This document shows, one piece after another, positions 15,987 through 27,401 of a stretch of 32,411 nt of DNA. A program made the translations under genes and the position numbers. The stretch is from Patescibacteria group bacterium (GTDB lineage Bacteria > Patescibacteriota > Patescibacteriia > Patescibacteriales > UBA12465): positions 1 through 32,411 of the forward strand of contig JAQWDY010000009.1 in assembly GCA_028705215.1 (NCBI GenBank), written 5' to 3'. The notes beneath the pieces were generated by a model. The model made no database searches. It saw only the letters and a program-made list of their open reading frames with translations, and was not told the origin of the DNA. Within the stretch, counting starts at the first letter, position 1. The number at the start of each line of letters is the position of its first letter.

Positions 15987-16751
15987 CTAAAACCAACGTG
16001 AAGTTAATAATAATATAATAATCATAATAAGACTAGAAAAAAGAGGAAATTTTATAAGCTGCCAGGTAAGTCGATCTCTAATAAATAGTCTCACTATTAA
16101 AAATAGCAAATAAAAATAAATAGCGCTAAGTAGTCCTAGAATATTAAAACTAAAAGGCAATAAATAAGTTACACCAGAAAGTTGCACAAAAGCAAGTAGG
16201 GCAACTATGAAAAGAAGGTAATTTTTCTTAAGATTTAAATTGCCAAGAATAAATGGTTGAAAAAATAAAGGAAAGACAGCTAGTGAAAAAAGGGCCAATA
16301 AGGGCCAAAAACTCCAACCTAAAAATACCGGCAAGCCATAAATTGAAGAAGCGAGAAAGAAAACTGAAAGTACTGAGCCCGCCATTAAAAATGTGTCCAA
16401 ACGGTCCATTCTATCAGGTGCGCCATAGCGAAAAAAATAATACAAATTCTTAAAATATATAAAGGCAAAATAAGCATTAATTAAAATTAAAAGTTGAACT
16501 ATGTAGAAATTAGGCAATAGAGTTTCATATAAAGATGAGGCTAAAAAGAAGATTAAAGGAAAATAGAAAAATAGGGGCCAAGTTACTTTTTTATTTCTTG
16601 TTGCTAAATTTTTTGTAGTTAGAACAATTAAAAGACTGCCTAAAGCTAAAGATATAAAAAAGAAATTAGGATAAAAAACAAAAAGTTCTCCCAGCCCGAG
16701 AAGTATCAGTGGTAAAATATAAAAAACCTTTTTTCCAGTAAAAAATTTCAT
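15987..16751 (-). CDS. Polytopic membrane protein of unknown function
   Basis: This 254-residue protein is almost wholly hydrophobic, with about eight predicted helices. Only short polar loops break it, such as TTKNLATRNKKVTWP (about residues 45-59) and RYGAPDRMDRLD (about 113-124). I do not recognise a family or a catalytic signature. It lies between the large lipoprotein gene (13-base gap) and the pseudo-HtrA gene (19-base gap), so a shared envelope role is a reasonable guess. Confidence 0.75.
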   Translation of the reverse strand: MKFFTGKKVFYILPLILLGLGELFVFYPNFFFISLALGSLLIVLTTKNLATRNKKVTWPLFFYFPLIFFLASSLYETLLPNFYIVQLLILINAYFAFIYFKNLYYFFRYGAPDRMDRLDTFLMAGSVLSVFFLASSIYGLPVFLGWSFWPLLALFSLAVFPLFFQPFILGNLNLKKNYLLFIVALLAFVQLSGVTYLLPFSFNILGLLSAIYFYLLFLIVRLFIRDRLTWQLIKFPLFSSLIMIIILLLTSRWF

Positions 16752-19280: not shown

Positions 19281-19964
19281 CTAGGGCAAAATTTTAACAA
19301 CATCGCCAACTTGTAAATGATTATAGACATATTCGGCTGCACCTATTCCTAAACGAATACAACCGTGAGAAACTGCCTGTCCTAGATGATCCTCTCCTTC
19401 ACGATATCCGCTAGGCCAAAATGGCAGCTCATGAATACCAATACCACCGCGTTCAAGGCCCAACCAAAAAGGCATCCATAAACCATAGGCACGACTCCAA
19501 GCCTTTTCAATCTTATTTATAATCTTAAAACTGCCAGTTGGCGTTGGCATTGATTTTTTACCAGTTGAAACTTTGAACTCACGCCATTTTATTTCTGCTA
19601 CAAAAAAAGATAATGTTTGTTCACTTAAATTTATTTCCACGCGCACCGGCAATTTATCCTTTATCTCTGAATTAGGATCAAAAGCATTATCAATTTCTAA
19701 AAAATCATTGTAACCATCGTTATCACTATCAGCCACAAAAGGATTAGTCTTAAAAACGTATTCAAAATAATCACTTAAACCGTCTCCATCAACATCACTA
19801 CTGTTTGCTCTTATAGGTTGCTTGTTATAAGGGGAGTAGCCCATCTTTATTTCTATCTCATCGCTATAACCATCGCCATCAGTATCTATCTCTGCTAAAA
19901 CAATGTTGCTAAATAAAAAAACGCTAAGTAGAACAAATATTATCGTTGTTATCTTCTTTGTCAT
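19281..19964 (-). CDS. L,D-transpeptidase (YkuD) with Ca-binding-type repeats
   Basis: This 227-residue exported protein has an N-terminal signal peptide (about 1-25). It is followed by three Asp-rich repeats of thrombospondin type-3 style (DTDGDGYSDEIE, DVDGDGLSDYFE and DSDNDGYNDFLE), likely calcium sites. The YkuD domain (about 100-227) has the active-site block GIHELP...SHGCIRL, with catalytic Cys202, His200 and Arg204. Family members cross-link peptidoglycan by 3-3 bonds or attach proteins to it, acting in the cell wall. It starts 2 bases after the glycosyltransferase-QueH gene, so translation is coupled to a cell-wall precursor gene. Confidence 0.93.
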   Translation of the reverse strand: MTKKITTIIFVLLSVFLFSNIVLAEIDTDGDGYSDEIEIKMGYSPYNKQPIRANSSDVDGDGLSDYFEYVFKTNPFVADSDNDGYNDFLEIDNAFDPNSEIKDKLPVRVEINLSEQTLSFFVAEIKWREFKVSTGKKSMPTPTGSFKIINKIEKAWSRAYGLWMPFWLGLERGGIGIHELPFWPSGYREGEDHLGQAVSHGCIRLGIGAAEYVYNHLQVGDVVKILP

Positions 19965-19966
19965 GT

Positions 19967-21538
19967 TTATTTTTTTCTTATTGAAAATTCACAACCACAA
20001 AATTTCTGTCTATACATACCTAAATTTTTTGCAAATTCTTGAGAATTGCGATAGGCATTTTCCGCCCTATAATCAGAATCTAAAAAAATGCTCTGATACT
20101 TTTTCTCCAAATCTTTCCCCATATTTTTTAAAGCATCTACATCCTTAAAAGGACTGTATAATAAACTAGTGCTAAAAAAGTCAAATTTTTTAGTTTTTGC
20201 TAGTTGAGCAGTTTTCTCTAAGCGATCAAAATAACAAATCCGACAACGCTCCCCCTTTTCTGGATCCGTTTCATAACCAGCTACTTTTTTTAGCCATAGA
20301 TCGTGCTTATAAGGGACAACAATCAAAGGAATAAGAAATTTTTTTGCCATTTTTTTTACATAATATAGACGTTTGTCATACTCCTCCTGTGACACTAAAT
20401 TAGGATTATAAAAAAACCAGGTTAAACGATATACTGGCTGTAGATAATTATAACTTATATAACTAGCACAAGGAGCGCAGCATACTTGTAGCAATAGCTT
20501 TGGTTTTTGTCTTTCATTTAGAAAATCAAGATAATGAAAAAGAGAAACTGTAATAATCATTAATAATAAAAGTAGGGCTAAGGCAAGAATTTTGCCCTTA
20601 GACTGCAAGAAAAGACCACTGACTCCAAATATTAAAGATAGAGAATAAAAAACCATAACAGTTTGTCGCTGATTCAAGCCTAGCGCCAATAAACGATGGT
20701 GCAAATGTTTTTTGTCAGCAAAACGAAAAGGATTTTTACCAACTAGAAGACGGCGCAGAATAGTCCAGGCAACATCTAAAATAGGAATACCCATAATAAG
20801 CAAGGCAATAGCAATCTTGCTGCCAGAGATTATAGATAAAACACCTAGAGCGTAACCTAAAAACAAAGAGCCGCCTTCGCCCAAAAAGATTTTAGCTGGA
20901 TGAAAATTAAAAATTAAAAAACCACAAGCCGCGGCCGCCAAGATTAAGGCAGCTAAGGCAATATCTGGTTGATAATAATTAGTTGTTAAAGTGAATAAAA
21001 AAATTATAATACTACCAATAGTGCCAACGCCAGTTACCAAGCCATCTACTCCATCAAGTAACTTGGTTGTATACATCATCCCTAAAAGCCATAATGAAAT
21101 TAAAAAAGGGCCTAATAAAAAATAATCTTGAAGATATATTAACCCTCCAAAAGGATTTGTAATTTTTTCAATCGTAACCCCCCCTATGATAAGCGCTCCA
21201 ATTGCTAATAGGGGAAAAATAATTTGCCATTTCGGTGCTAAATTATATTTATCATCTAATACTCCCCCTCCAGTTATAATCAGGCCACCAAAGAAAAAAC
21301 CAAGCAAATGACTCCACTCTAAGTTGCCTCCTAAAAATGATTTAGAATATATAAATAAGGTTAGAAAAAAAGCTAAAAAAATTGCCACTCCACCTAAAAG
21401 TGGCATCGCCTTTTTATGTATCTTTCTTGGACCTGGTTTATCAACAATAGAAAATTTAAGGGCAATTTTTTTTATCAATAAAGTGAAAACTACAGCCAAG
21501 GAAAAACTAATTATAAATGGAAAGATATAAACGTTCAT
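19967..21538 (-). CDS. WecA/MraY-like glycosyl-1-phosphate transferase fused to QueH domain
   Basis: This is a 523-residue single frame with two domains. Residues 1-340 are a polytopic polyprenyl-phosphate sugar-1-phosphate transferase, with KPGPRKIHKKAMPLLGG at the start, catalytic DDK at 95-97, LDGVDGL at 161-167, HPAKIFLGEGGS near 213 and HLHHRL at 278-283. Residues 346-523 match QueH (DUF208), the epoxyqueuosine reductase of tRNA queuosine synthesis: VCCAPCA at 352, an EYDKRLYYV helix, RCRICY, TSLLYSPFKDVDALKN, and FCGCEFS at the end. All characteristic Cys clusters are kept. There is no linker and no stop between the parts. The two activities are unrelated, so this is an unusual fusion. 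In the transferase the usual GDTGS loop is GEGGS. Confidence 0.86.
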   Translation of the reverse strand: MNVYIFPFIISFSLAVVFTLLIKKIALKFSIVDKPGPRKIHKKAMPLLGGVAIFLAFFLTLFIYSKSFLGGNLEWSHLLGFFFGGLIITGGGVLDDKYNLAPKWQIIFPLLAIGALIIGGVTIEKITNPFGGLIYLQDYFLLGPFLISLWLLGMMYTTKLLDGVDGLVTGVGTIGSIIIFLFTLTTNYYQPDIALAALILAAAACGFLIFNFHPAKIFLGEGGSLFLGYALGVLSIISGSKIAIALLIMGIPILDVAWTILRRLLVGKNPFRFADKKHLHHRLLALGLNQRQTVMVFYSLSLIFGVSGLFLQSKGKILALALLLLLMIITVSLFHYLDFLNERQKPKLLLQVCCAPCASYISYNYLQPVYRLTWFFYNPNLVSQEEYDKRLYYVKKMAKKFLIPLIVVPYKHDLWLKKVAGYETDPEKGERCRICYFDRLEKTAQLAKTKKFDFFSTSLLYSPFKDVDALKNMGKDLEKKYQSIFLDSDYRAENAYRNSQEFAKNLGMYRQKFCGCEFSIRKK

Positions 21539-21543
21539 ATTTT

Positions 21544-24213
21544 TTATAATTCCTTTGCTTTTTCTACCAAAATTTTTGCCTGACTGTCAATTAATACCTG
21601 GTCTCTCCGTTTTAATTCTGACGACAATATTTTATTAGCAATTTCATCTTCAACCTTTTCTTGTAGCAAACGTCGCATCGGCCTAGCGCCAAATTTTGGG
21701 TCATAACCTTCTTTAGCCAACAACATAACTCCCGCTTTATCAGCCTTAAGTCCAATTCCCTTTTTTTCTAAATTACTTTTAATCCCTTTTAGCATTAAAG
21801 TAGCAATTTTAAAAATATCGCGTTCACTTAAAGGTTTAAAAACAATAATGCCATCAAAACGATTAATGAGCTCTGGTCTCATTTTGTCTCGCAAATGCTT
21901 ATCAATCAACTCTTGCTTTATATCACTAATCTCCTTTTTATTTTTAATGCTATCTTGAATAAACTTAGCGCCAATATTAGATGTAGCGATAATAATAGAT
22001 TCAGCAAAACTTATAGTGCGCCCCTGACCATCAGTTAAGCGCCCATCATCTAGTAGTTGTAAGAATAAATTTAAAATATTAGGATTAGCCTTTTCAACTT
22101 CGTCCAATAAAATTAAAGAAAATGGTTTTTTTCTTACCGCTTCAGTTAAATAACCCAAAGAGCCATCAACATCTCCTATCATTTTTCTCACACTATCTTC
22201 ATGTTGGTATTCACTCATATCAACTCTTATCATATAATCTTCACTACCAAAGTATATTTCCGATACCGCCTTAGCTAATTCCGTTTTTCCGACTCCAGTT
22301 GGCCCTAAAAACAAAAAACTAGCAATTGGCCGTTTACTATCTTTTAAGGCGGCTCGTGCTCTTCTTAAACTAGCAGAAACAGCCTTCACGGCCTCCTCTT
22401 GATCAACCATGCGTCGATGAATCTCGGTTTCTAAATTAAGCAGCTTGCTTCCCTCTTCTTCTTTTAACTTTCCAGCCGGTATCCCCGTTTCTGCCTCAAT
22501 CGCCAATGCCACATCTTCTTGAGAGCAAAAAGGCTTCTCCGGATTATTAACACTATTTTTAGCTGATAATTGCGCAGCTTTTTCTAACAAATTAATCGCC
22601 TTTAAAGGAAGTGACTTATCTTTTAAATAACGTGAAGATAACTCGACTGCCTTTTCCAGGGCGCTATAAACAATATAAACATCATACTTTGACTCAAAAA
22701 AGCCGACCTTGCTTTCTAAAATCTGAATGGCTAAGTTTTTATCAGGCTCATCTACACCAACTGTAGTTAAAGCGGTTCCCAGCGCTTTATTTTCTATATA
22801 AAGAGAATAATTATAGTTAGTAATAGTCGCTAGACATAATATATGCTTCCTTGTTATTGCCTCTGATAGAACTTCTGATAAATCTAAACTTTCATCACTG
22901 CCCGCACTGATCCCCGCTAAATTTTCAATATTATCAATGTAGAAAATAATATTTCCTGATCGATTTGCCTCAGAAATACAAGCCAGTAAGCGATCTTGGG
23001 CGCCACTGGCAGTGGTGCCACTGACTATACGAGAAACGTCAATTTCCACCAAACGCTTATCTTTCATAAATTTCGGCACGTTTTCCGCCACCATCATCTG
23101 TGCTAAGCCGCCAATAATTGCCCCCTTGCCAACCCCGTGAGGACCAACTAATAAAACACCAGCGTGACCACCAATAAAATTTTCAAAAATCTCCTCTATT
23201 TCTTTTTGTCGACCAACACATAAGTCGAACTGCCCTGCTTTAGCTTTTAAAGTTAAGTCGTGAGAAAAACGATCAAGCGTTGGCGTTGCAATCGCCGTAT
23301 AGGAACGATTCATTCCTGAATCTGGTTTAAACAACGACAAACGACGATAATCTTGGTATCTTTCTCTTAACTGTCTATCAACCTTAAACCAAGCAACAGT
23401 ATTTAACACCTTATCCTTGTCCACCTCTAACTCATATAAAATCTCTGCTAATTCCTTATCTCTGTCTAAGCAGGCATAAATAATATTTAAAATATTAATG
23501 CTTTTATCTTGTTCGTAAAAAGAAGCGGCAAAAGCCTCTAACATAACTTCCTGCAGTCTTGGTGCCAATTCTCTTAAATTATCCCCCGTTACTGTTTTTA
23601 TAATTTGTCTATCTACCATATTTACCAATCTTTCCACATCAACATTTAAACGAATAAGCAAACTCTGCATCTGTCTATTTTTTAAAGCGGCCCGAAAAAA
23701 GTGAATGATATCAACTTGTGTTGGAATCTTAGAAGCTAACAAAAAGGCATCCTCTAATACTAGATAAGCTTCATCATCTAAAGTTTTGGCGATATTATAG
23801 CGCTTATTCTCTAACTTCTCCTTAGTAAAAAATCTATAATTAATTCTTTTTACCTTTTGACGACGACGACTATATTTAAAAATTAAATAAAGATCAAACC
23901 ACAGAGAGGTTAAAAATACAGAAATTAAAATATCACCTTGCGTCCAGAAAAAAAGAATAGTTAAAGGATCTTTTAATAAATAATCCTGATTAATAAAAAG
24001 CCAGAAGAAAAAAGAGGCCCAACCTAAAAAAATAATAAGCCAAGAAAAGAAACCAAGAATTTTATCAAGCTGACGCTTCGTACGATCAAGTGCGATTAAT
24101 GATTTTTTTATAGTTTTTTGCCAATATAAAAAGCGCCCTAAAAACCAAGCGCCCTGATTATTGCTCACACTATCTCTGCTAAACTCTAATTTTATTGACT
24201 TATTATACTCCAT
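21544..24213 (-). CDS. Membrane-anchored Clp-like AAA+ protein with degenerate first ATPase domain
   Basis: The 889-residue protein has two membrane helices (about 51-74 and 84-112), a Clp-N-like helical region (about 145-275), AAA+ D1 (about 320-500) and AAA+ D2 (about 595-880). D2 is canonical in its nucleotide motifs: Walker A GPTGVGKT (637-644), Walker B LLDE (702-705), sensor 1 TSN and sensor 2 GARPMRR. D1 is not: Walker A is GPHGVGKG (357-364, Thr lost), Walker B is YIDN (425-428, Glu lost), the arginine-finger segment ALERRF is ALGTAL and the KYRG pore motif is TASG. The D2 pore segment is also shortened. It overlaps the upstream small membrane gene by 11 bases. It is probably a membrane-tethered remodeller or scaffold. 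Confidence 0.85.
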   Translation of the reverse strand: MEYNKSIKLEFSRDSVSNNQGAWFLGRFLYWQKTIKKSLIALDRTKRQLDKILGFFSWLIIFLGWASFFFWLFINQDYLLKDPLTILFFWTQGDILISVFLTSLWFDLYLIFKYSRRRQKVKRINYRFFTKEKLENKRYNIAKTLDDEAYLVLEDAFLLASKIPTQVDIIHFFRAALKNRQMQSLLIRLNVDVERLVNMVDRQIIKTVTGDNLRELAPRLQEVMLEAFAASFYEQDKSINILNIIYACLDRDKELAEILYELEVDKDKVLNTVAWFKVDRQLRERYQDYRRLSLFKPDSGMNRSYTAIATPTLDRFSHDLTLKAKAGQFDLCVGRQKEIEEIFENFIGGHAGVLLVGPHGVGKGAIIGGLAQMMVAENVPKFMKDKRLVEIDVSRIVSGTTASGAQDRLLACISEANRSGNIIFYIDNIENLAGISAGSDESLDLSEVLSEAITRKHILCLATITNYNYSLYIENKALGTALTTVGVDEPDKNLAIQILESKVGFFESKYDVYIVYSALEKAVELSSRYLKDKSLPLKAINLLEKAAQLSAKNSVNNPEKPFCSQEDVALAIEAETGIPAGKLKEEEGSKLLNLETEIHRRMVDQEEAVKAVSASLRRARAALKDSKRPIASFLFLGPTGVGKTELAKAVSEIYFGSEDYMIRVDMSEYQHEDSVRKMIGDVDGSLGYLTEAVRKKPFSLILLDEVEKANPNILNLFLQLLDDGRLTDGQGRTISFAESIIIATSNIGAKFIQDSIKNKKEISDIKQELIDKHLRDKMRPELINRFDGIIVFKPLSERDIFKIATLMLKGIKSNLEKKGIGLKADKAGVMLLAKEGYDPKFGARPMRRLLQEKVEDEIANKILSSELKRRDQVLIDSQAKILVEKAKEL

Positions 24214-24583
24214 AGAAGGATACTAATTGAAAAAACAAGGATAAAAACAAAAAAATAGGCCCAGCAAGCCATAATAAAATACTAACAATAAAAACAATTA
24301 ACCAAAATATAAGAAAAAGTCCCCGAAAAATTACTTGAATTAACCTTACAAAAAAACTAATAATTCTTCCTGCCCAATCATATTGTCCATACATGGGAAC
24401 AAGGATATTCTTTAACCAAATAGAAAAACCAAGCGCCTTTTCTCTTTGACATAAAAAACGCCAACCTTTTTTTATCATTTCCAAAAACCCCACGCTGTAC
24501 CACCAGATTGGAAAAATGACTATATCAGAGATGATTTTTAAAATTATTTGGCTACCGTAAGTCAAAAAATTATGTTTAAACAT
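24203..24583 (-). CDS. Small membrane protein coupled to the Clp-like gene
   Basis: This 126-residue protein has about three hydrophobic segments (about 10-35, 72-95 and 95-122), with a basic, polar middle (KKGWRFLCQREKALG). It has no known motif that I recognise. Its stop overlaps the start of the membrane-anchored Clp-like gene by 11 bases, implying coupled translation and perhaps a shared membrane complex. It is the first gene of the minus-strand run, opposite clpB. Confidence 0.72.
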   Translation of the reverse strand: MFKHNFLTYGSQIILKIISDIVIFPIWWYSVGFLEMIKKGWRFLCQREKALGFSIWLKNILVPMYGQYDWAGRIISFFVRLIQVIFRGLFLIFWLIVFIVSILLWLAGPIFLFLSLFFQLVSFYGV

Positions 24584-24761: not shown

Positions 24762-27401
24762 ATGTTTAATAAATTTACAGACAAATCGCAAGAAGTAATA
24801 ATTAATTCGCAGATAATTGCGTCCGATTACGGTCAAGGCAATATTGAAGCTTTACATATATTTTTAGCACTCTTAGAGCAGAGTGAGGGGTTGGTAAAGC
24901 CAATTTTAGAGAAATTAAAAATAGACCCCGAACAAATGGAAGCACAAATTGTTAAAGCCTTAAACGATCTTCCCAAGGGCAAGGTTAATAAAAGTGATGG
25001 CCCAATTCAAGCGGTATCTGGAACTGCTGAAACAGCAACTATTTTAGAACGAGCAAAAAAAGAGGCTGATGGCATGAATGACGAGTTTATTTCAACTGAA
25101 CACATTTTTCTCGCCCTTATTGGCGTCCCTACTGCTGCCCAAAATATCTTGCTTTCTTTTAAGGTAGAATACGATAAAGTAAAAGAGATATTAAAAGATT
25201 TGCGCGGCTCACAAGTAATTAGTGACCCCTTCCCTGAAAATAAGTATAGGGTGCTGGAAAAATACACCACCAACTTAACTGAAATGGCTCGACAGGAAAA
25301 ACTAGATCCTGTGATTGGTCGTGATCAAGAAATAAGGCGCATCATGCAAGTTCTGCTACGTCGCACTAAAAATAATCCCGTACTAATTGGCGAGGCAGGA
25401 ACAGGAAAAACGGCTATTGTTGAAGGTTTGGCACAAAGAATCATTTCTGGCGATGTTCCTGAAAACCTGAAAAACAAAGAAATAATTACTCTTGATTTAG
25501 GCGCCTTAATAGCAGGTGCAAAATTTCGTGGTGAATTTGAAGATAGGCTAAAGGCGGTTTTAAAAGAAGTAAAATCTAATAATGATAAATTTATAATATT
25601 TATCGATGAGCTTCACACTTTAATTGGCGCTGGCGCCTCTGAAGGAGCAATGGACGCCTCCAACATGTTAAAGCCCGTCTTAGCCCGCGGTGAATTGCGT
25701 ACTATTGGCGCTACCACCACTAAGGAATATCAAAAATATATTGAAAAAGACTCTGCCTTAGAACGTCGTTTTCAACCAATATATGTCGCTGAGCCCAGTT
25801 TAGACGATACCATATCCATGTTACGTGGTTTAAAGGAAAAATATGAGGTCCACCATGGTGTTCGTATTACTGATAACGCGGTGATTGCGGCTGCTAAATT
25901 ATCAAATCGTTACATTAGTGACCGCTTCCTGCCCGATAAAGCAGTTGATCTAATCGATGAAGCGACTTCATCGCTGCGCATGGAAATTGATTCCATGCCA
26001 GATGAACTTGATCAATTAAAACGAAAGATAAAGCAATTAGAACTAAATAAGGCGGGGCTACAAACTAGTGAAAATAAAAAATCTAGTAAAATTCGCAATA
26101 TAAATCAAGAGTTAGCAAAACTAAAAGAAAGAGCTAACCAAATAGAGCTGCATTGGAATAATGAAAAAAATATAATTTCTGATATCAGAAAATCAAAAAA
26201 AGAAATTGAAGATTTAAAAATTAAGGCCGAAATTGCCCAAAGACAAGGAGCTGATTTAAATGAGGTGGCAAAAATTAAATACGGCCTTGTCCCTGAGCTC
26301 GAAAAAAAGATTGACACCTTGCAAGCTGAACTCTTAAAAATTCAAAAGAAAGGCCAGCGCATACTAAAAGAAGAAGTTGATGAAGAAGATATCGCTAAAG
26401 TGGTCGCTCGCTGGACAGGGATTCCAGTTAATAAAATGTTGCAAGATGAAATTAAAAAACTAAGTAATGCTGAAGAGTTTATAAACCGCGCGGTTGTTGG
26501 CCAAGAAGAAGCAATTAAAGCAATTGCTAATGCTCTACGTCGCTCTCGTGCTGGCATTAATGAAGAAAAAAAACCGATTGGCTCCTTTCTTTTTATTGGC
26601 CCTACTGGTGTAGGAAAAACTGAGTTAGCTAAAGTTTTAGCTAAATTCATGTTCAATGATGAAAAATCATTAATTCGACTTGATATGAGCGAATTTATGG
26701 AAAAGCACTCAGTTGCTAAAATAATTGGCTCACCACCTGGATATATTGGGCATGATGAAGGCGGACAGCTTAGTGATAAGGTTAGACGTCGACCATATAG
26801 CGTTGTTTTATTTGATGAAATTGAAAAAGCGCATCCTGATATGTTTAACATCCTATTACAAATTCTCGATGATGGCCGCTTAACAGACTCCAAGGGACGC
26901 GTAGTTAATTTTAAAAATACTATTATTATCATGACCTCTAACTTAGGCAATGAGGTAATTAAACAATACTCCATTGGCTTTAATGCTGATGATGAAAAAC
27001 CAAATTCAAAAATAAGACAAGAGGAAATGAAAAATAAAATAGATAGTATTTTAAAAAAGAATTTCAAGTTAGAATTTCTAAATCGCATTGATGAAACTGT
27101 ACTCTTCCAAAATCTAACCCCTAAGGCTCTAGAAAAAATAGTTGATTTAGAGTTGATTAAAATTGAAAAAAGATTAGCAAATAAAAATATCAACCTCAAG
27201 ATTGGGGTAAAAGTGAAAAAGATGCTAGCGGAAAAAGGATATGATATTACCTTTGGTGCTCGTCCTCTAAAAAGAATCATCCAAAATCTTATTCTTGATG
27301 AACTGGCCCTGGAAATAATTGAAGGCAAAATTAATGAAGGTGCTAAGGTAAAAATCAATCTTGATAGTAAGAATAGAGTTGAAATAATTAGTCAAAAATA
27401 A
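24762..27401 (+). CDS. clpB: ClpB disaggregase
   Basis: This is an 879-residue hexameric AAA+ chaperone that extracts proteins from aggregates with DnaK. It has an N domain (1-150), D1 with [31 protein letters not shown] pore and ALERRFQP arginine fingers, a long coiled-coil M domain (about 400-540), and D2 with [29 protein letters not shown] pore and GARPLKR sensor 2. The long M domain separates ClpB from ClpC. All catalytic residues are intact, in contrast to the Clp-like gene transcribed away from it. A CIRCE operator overlaps its start point, so it is probably heat-inducible. No Shine-Dalgarno site is seen. Confidence 0.96.

Follow-up and report, generated by a model that had tools for sequence, protein, structure and literature searches.

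Genes and domains at the locus

The window (the whole stretch of DNA that was analysed, 32,411 nucleotides) belongs to a Patescibacteria genome of 746 kb that is 99% complete in 36 contigs. DNA of the region gave no match to plasmids. The locus is made up of a compact run of genes on the minus strand, and at its centre is a single ORF, present in one copy in the genome, that runs from ATG to TAA and holds two complete domains in frame (Table 1). The N-terminal part is a WecA/MraY-type transferase with 11 predicted transmembrane helices, and this is followed by a linker of about 6 residues and a complete QueH domain. A sequence-only reading of this DNA had described two complete domains in one frame, and this is borne out, as both domain profiles were matched and the Cys clusters of QueH are intact; its coordinates and domain limits also proved accurate.

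Table 1. Features of the wecA-queH locus, in window coordinates
Feature	Position	Strand	Basis or remark
Clp/Hsp100-type AAA ATPase, 889 aa	21544..24213	(-)	upstream operon gene, 5 bp before wecA-queH
Fused wecA-queH gene	19967..21538	(-)	523 aa; same fusion in 26 family genomes
WecA/MraY-type polyprenyl-phosphate HexNAc-1-phosphate transferase domain, residues 1-340	20519..21538	(-)	Pfam PF00953, Foldseek, hydropathy and charge
DD motif, D95-D96, in LDDKYNL	21251..21256	(-)	
DGVD of TTKLLDGVDGL	21044..21055	(-)	order-specific; Lys where MraY has Asn (NLTDGLDGL)
E221 of FLGEGGS	20876..20878	(-)	Glu for metal-site Asp of MraY (FMGDVG); nearly order-wide
HLHHR motif, residues 278-282	20693..20707	(-)	
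Junction linker, residues 341-346, within NERQKPK	20501..20518	(-)	short, basic; no conserved in-frame start codon
QueH epoxyqueuosine reductase domain, residues 347-523	19967..20500	(-)	Pfam PF02677, E 2e-56; Foldseek to TmQueH
CCAPC, residues 353-357	20468..20482	(-)	
CRIC, C432 and C435	20234..20245	(-)	
CGC, C514-C516	19991..19999	(-)	
L,D-transpeptidase (YkuD) with TSP3 repeats	19281..19964	(-)	downstream operon gene, 2 bp after the fusion

Throughout the window's family, and in several others of the order, the AAA ATPase stands upstream of wecA, a conservation of gene order that is by itself no proof of co-transcription. Two Hsp100-type ATPases lie side by side but divergent in the window (21544-24213 and 24762-27401), one of them a ClpB and the other, the 889-aa protein, a ClpA/ClpC-like protein with an N-terminus that looks membrane-spanning. 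Two further genes at 24203-24583 (126 aa) and 15987-16751 (254 aa) are without a Pfam match and recur in the operon across families.

The Pfam QueH profile matches residues 348 to 521 over positions 1 to 174 of its 175, scoring 191 bits against a cut-off of 23.5. All of the QueH cysteines are present (C353, C354, C357, C432, C435, C514, and C516), and the conserved clusters for the iron-sulphur centre (CCxxC/D, CxxC, and CGC) are complete. Alignment with QueH from Thermotoga maritima (7LC5/9DCO) gave an E value of 1e-28. AlphaFold2 was run on the window protein with 29 related sequences; in the resulting model the QueH half has pLDDT values mostly above 90, and Foldseek places it on 7LC5 with a target TM-score of 0.90 at 36% identity, the fold being that of QueH. 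The last transmembrane helix of the model (residues 317-344) runs straight into the first QueH strand (residues 347-352).

The transferase half is matched by Pfam Glycos_transf_4 at residues 79 to 238 (E 2e-27, 96.5 bits against a cut-off of 27) and aligns with MraY structures at E values of up to 5e-8. Its predicted fold is MraY-like (Foldseek target TM-score about 0.7), in a model where this half has pLDDT values of about 46 to 90 and only three sequences behind it. Scores fall below the curated cut-offs both for WecA of enterobacterial common antigen (TIGR02380, 122.7 bits against 326) and for MraY (TIGR00445, 67.7 bits against 192), and the domain is therefore named WecA-like rather than WecA proper. 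The DD, DGxDG, and HLHH motifs are present, but FLGEGGS has Glu in place of Asp, and TKLLDG has Lys in place of Asn. Both altered motifs are found across nearly the whole order, and the changes are independent of the fusion. Given these altered catalytic residues, transferase activity is something that we infer from the sequence. A second, more distant PF00953-type gene, distinct from the transferase half, lies on contig C11 of the window genome and is probably MraY.

Hydropathy and charge give a topology of 11 helices with a cytoplasmic C-terminus. With a count of 11 helices (G022), loops 1, 3, 5, 7, and 9, which carry the motifs, lie with the QueH linker on the same positively charged, cytoplasmic side. 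This agrees with the earlier suggestion that the join could tether tRNA modification to the membrane; such tethering would be its physical consequence, since the 11-helix topology places QueH in the cytoplasm.

The join is real and old

Joining of two ordinary genes by a frameshift, a missing stop, or a misassembly would be another explanation of the ORF, and some relatives do have a stop at the junction (G012, G008, and G015). It can practically be dismissed and is refuted by independent assemblies. The same two-domain architecture, for which the sequence-only reading proposed a search among relatives, was found in frame in 26 of the 30 QueH-bearing genomes of the window's family, among them two that are assembled in a single contig (G003 and G023) and an independent assembly of a close relative at 88% identity (G006). 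The split genes nest within fused relatives, and there is no conserved start codon in front of QueH. Among the 22 codons examined at the junction there is no conserved in-frame ATG, GTG, or TTG, and six fused genomes have none at all. Thus, QueH is probably not made as a separate protein, and production from an internal start was set aside on the same grounds.

The suggestion that this might be a recent gene join is contradicted by the family-wide occurrence of the fusion, by identities of 53 to 60% between genera, and by the tree described below. Both halves are under strong purifying selection; dN/dS between close pairs, where dS is unsaturated, is 0.06 to 0.11 for the WecA half and 0.04 to 0.10 for the QueH half. 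WecA-QueH is a real, old, family-wide two-domain protein whose architecture is new and whose domains are each ordinary.

Several longer frames were also considered. The 660-aa single frames in three genomes (G038, G047, and G049) proved to be sums of neighbouring frames and not one ORF, the true structure being wecA followed by vanZ-queH or by vanZ and queH. Frames of 777 to 1540 aa in G003, G026, G034, G479, and G480 were not used as evidence for longer fusions, and those that were read through (G003, G026, and G034) cross stretches of N. In G028 (L010 / L245), WecA-QueH runs in frame into the YkuD signal peptide and domain, giving about 808 aa with no ATG between QueH and YkuD, a possible triple fusion.

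Distribution and origin of the fusion

A total of 79 QueH proteins were read from all 111 genomes of the order. WecA-QueH accounts for 26 of these, all in the window's family, and a fusion of QueH to a VanZ domain accounts for 21. In 13 cases a separate vanZ ORF lies immediately upstream of queH or overlaps it, 3 are split WecA / QueH pairs from the window's genus, 1 is cut by a contig end, and 15 stand alone. Many sister-family genomes have QueH joined to the VanZ domain (PF04892), which was matched with E values of 2e-11 to 6e-7 in three examples and more weakly in two others. Of the 60 relatives, those with VanZ all belong to other families than the window's and have one copy each, and 12 of the 15 matches lie in or beside queH; no vanZ was detected in the 36 sampled genomes of the family with WecA-QueH. 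In a sample of the phylum, other QueH frames are 179 to 288 aa long apart from fragments, and the two longest that are readable (288 and 248 aa) carry no membrane domain. The sole polytopic membrane fusion among 105 readable loci from bacteria and other Patescibacteria was on a contig of the window's own family. A Desulfurellales MAG (JALUBE010000058.1, L113 1931-3088) has an RNase HII apparently fused in frame to QueH in a protein of 385 aa, as judged by sequence motifs; this fusion is unrelated to those of the order.

The surroundings of these genes offer a route to the fusion. In other families the AAA ATPase, wecA, vanZ, and queH follow in that order, often with gaps of a few bases or with overlaps. 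The window's family lacks the vanZ module, and its QueH is attached to WecA. Predictions published for VanZ link it to lipid-carrier glycan metabolism (PMC12419801), a paper whose main text makes no mention of QueH. As VanZ and WecA are both tied to this metabolism, QueH sits in an envelope operon. The sequence-only reading had called the join unexpected; the surprise is tempered by partners that neighbour each other in a compact operon and by the VanZ-QueH proteins of sister families.

A tree of 50 WecA proteins brings the fused family together except for the divergent, weakly placed G025. Within the fused family nest the splits (G012, and G008 with G015) as well as the losses of QueH. The QueH tree agrees in outline, its deep forks having low support. 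A single origin of the fusion, close to or at the base of the window's family, is likely, though it is read from a tree with weak support at the family base and with G025 outside at low support. In an operon of the form AAA ATPase - wecA - (vanZ) - queH, vanZ would have been lost together with the stop of wecA and the start of queH. Close relatives with separate genes and a stop between them had been proposed as grounds for rejecting the join. Such relatives do occur, but on the tree they are later splits of an older fusion, so the join is not refuted, while the case for a required tether is weakened.

The QueH half and the queuosine pathway

The earlier reading had pointed to queG, a separate queH, tgt, and queA as the genes to look for elsewhere in the genome. 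The fusion is the only QueH of the window genome, which has both Tgt and QueA. No QueG was found in any of 60 relatives, while nine control genomes gave QueG matches. Of these 60, 54 have Tgt and 51 have QueA. The presence of QueA and QueH agrees in 43 of 46 genomes that are at least 90% complete (Fisher p = 9e-5, a value that overstates independence, as the genomes are related and the family holds about 2 to 3 separate losses). The three exceptions are matters of assembly: a run of N that starts at the junction (G011), a contig that ends inside wecA (G013), and a fragmentary genome (G036). In the window's family, queA is present in all 27 genomes with QueH. In three others (G002, G005, and G014) QueH has been cleanly deleted while wecA is intact, queA is absent, and tgt is kept. 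In G002, ykuD directly follows wecA, whereas G005 and G014 lack ykuD along with queH, so that no fewer than two distinct deletions have occurred. One genome from elsewhere in the order has the arrangement queA-queH-tgt (G037).

This co-occurrence makes it almost certain that the QueH half works as an epoxyqueuosine reductase, because it is the sole QueH, there is no QueG, tgt and queA are present, and the domain is lost in relatives without queA. Alternatively, QueH could have taken on a new substrate, such as a WecA-pathway intermediate that is lipid-linked or a nucleotide sugar, in line with the earlier proposal of a new function for the fold. Such a role would fit the fusion with an envelope enzyme, and also the sister-family fusion with VanZ, for which an action on the head groups of lipid carriers has been predicted (PMC12419801). 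The idea is nevertheless very improbable given that this only QueH, in genomes without QueG, disappears together with queA while wecA stays, and that it retains the QueH fold and every Cys ligand. Since loss of QueH tracks loss of queA, a new function was discarded.

QueF and QueT are absent from all 60 sampled genomes of the order, and YhhQ/QPTR is found in 16 of the 60, despite the presence of Tgt, QueA, and QueH in the clade. Most of these bacteria, the window's among them, would thus need some other preQ1 importer. Neither membrane partner of QueH is supported in this role; the fused family keeps the pathway without a detectable VanZ, and genomes that lost QueH and QueA keep WecA.

Does the tether matter?

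The explanation that we favour, and hold to be probable as a whole, is one polypeptide with two enzymes that have separate jobs, in which the fusion came out of the operon and the tether is tolerated. The N-terminal 11-helix domain would be the cell's WecA/TagO-type transferase, loading sugar-1-phosphate onto polyprenyl-phosphate at the cytoplasmic face of the membrane. Within a few residues of the same face, the C-terminal QueH would act as the cell's only epoxyqueuosine reductase and complete queuosine in tRNA after Tgt and QueA. The main consequences of the fusion, as predicted from sequence, would be co-translation of the two enzymes and tethering of QueH to the membrane. Although tolerated and long retained, the tether appears not to be required, since the gene was re-split at least twice and the QueH half was deleted at least twice with WecA intact. 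From these later events in the window's genus it follows that the cell can do without the tether and that the two activities can be separated. A membrane-tethered tRNA-modification enzyme is most simply explained by operon compaction.

It is possible, if on balance unlikely, that the tether was selected because placement at the membrane improves or regulates the action of QueH, WecA having replaced VanZ as the anchor. The benefit could lie, for example, in a membrane electron donor for the iron-sulphur cluster or in a coupling of translation capacity to envelope synthesis. Two polyprenyl-pathway membrane partners occur in one order (26 WecA-QueH and 21 VanZ-QueH, with 13 more that have vanZ as the immediate neighbour, against 15 QueH alone), and two different membrane proteins joined to QueH are more than a purely incidental reading predicts. 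The other Patescibacteria and other bacteria sampled show no membrane fusion, no vanZ was detected in the 36 sampled genomes of the WecA-QueH family, as if the anchor had been swapped, and the fusion has been retained through divergence to 53 to 60% identity. On the other hand, several families of the order have a solitary QueH, at least two splits of the fusion fall in the window's own genus, and compact operons ease fusions by loss of a stop, ykuD also being in frame in G028. The topology is consistent with either a selected or an incidental tether. A broader proposal, also possible but unlikely, is that attachment of QueH to the inner membrane through any available polyprenyl-pathway protein (VanZ in some families, WecA in that of the window) is an adaptation of the order that couples envelope synthesis to the decoding capacity of tRNA or to redox chemistry.

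Tolerated or selected, the fusion would mean, if it is real at the protein level, that queuosine is finished at the membrane in these tiny-genome, Falkowbacteria-type Patescibacteria. The natural series of fused, split, deleted, and VanZ-anchored forms makes a ready comparison of function against mere compaction in reduced genomes.

Comparison with known systems

No description of WecA-QueH or VanZ-QueH was found in the openly accessible literature, which leaves their absence from the literature unproven, and none of a tRNA-modification enzyme fused to a polyprenyl-phosphate transferase was found in the searchable literature. Each half has well-known relatives. The QueH half resembles T. maritima QueH (PF02677/DUF208, 7LC5) in its full-length domain, Cys motifs, and predicted fold, although Cys357 stands where the T. 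maritima protein has an Asp (D13). Like the QueH family in general it goes with Tgt and QueA and replaces QueG. Unlike the other QueH proteins sampled, which are mostly about 180 to 250 aa long and have no membrane domain, it makes up the C-terminal portion of a polytopic membrane protein. The transferase half shares with WecA, TagO, and MraY (PF00953) the 11 predicted transmembrane helices, the DD, DGxDG, and HxHH motifs, and an MraY-like predicted fold. It differs from MraY in having FLGEGGS and TTKLLDGVDGL in place of FMGD and NLTDGLDGL, and from all three in carrying QueH at its C-terminus.

The closest counterparts are the VanZ-QueH proteins of sister families, in which QueH likewise begins a few residues after the last transmembrane helix and is encoded in or near the same operon. 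They are anchored by a VanZ/lipocone domain of about 120 aa, whereas the anchor in the window's family is WecA. Fusions of Tgt to transporters, which have been used to find transporters of queuosine precursors (PMC11130926), are similar in that an enzyme of the queuosine pathway is joined to a membrane protein. In those fusions the partners are Tgt and a transporter, whereas here they are QueH and a polyprenyl-phosphate transferase that gives no sign of carrying preQ1.
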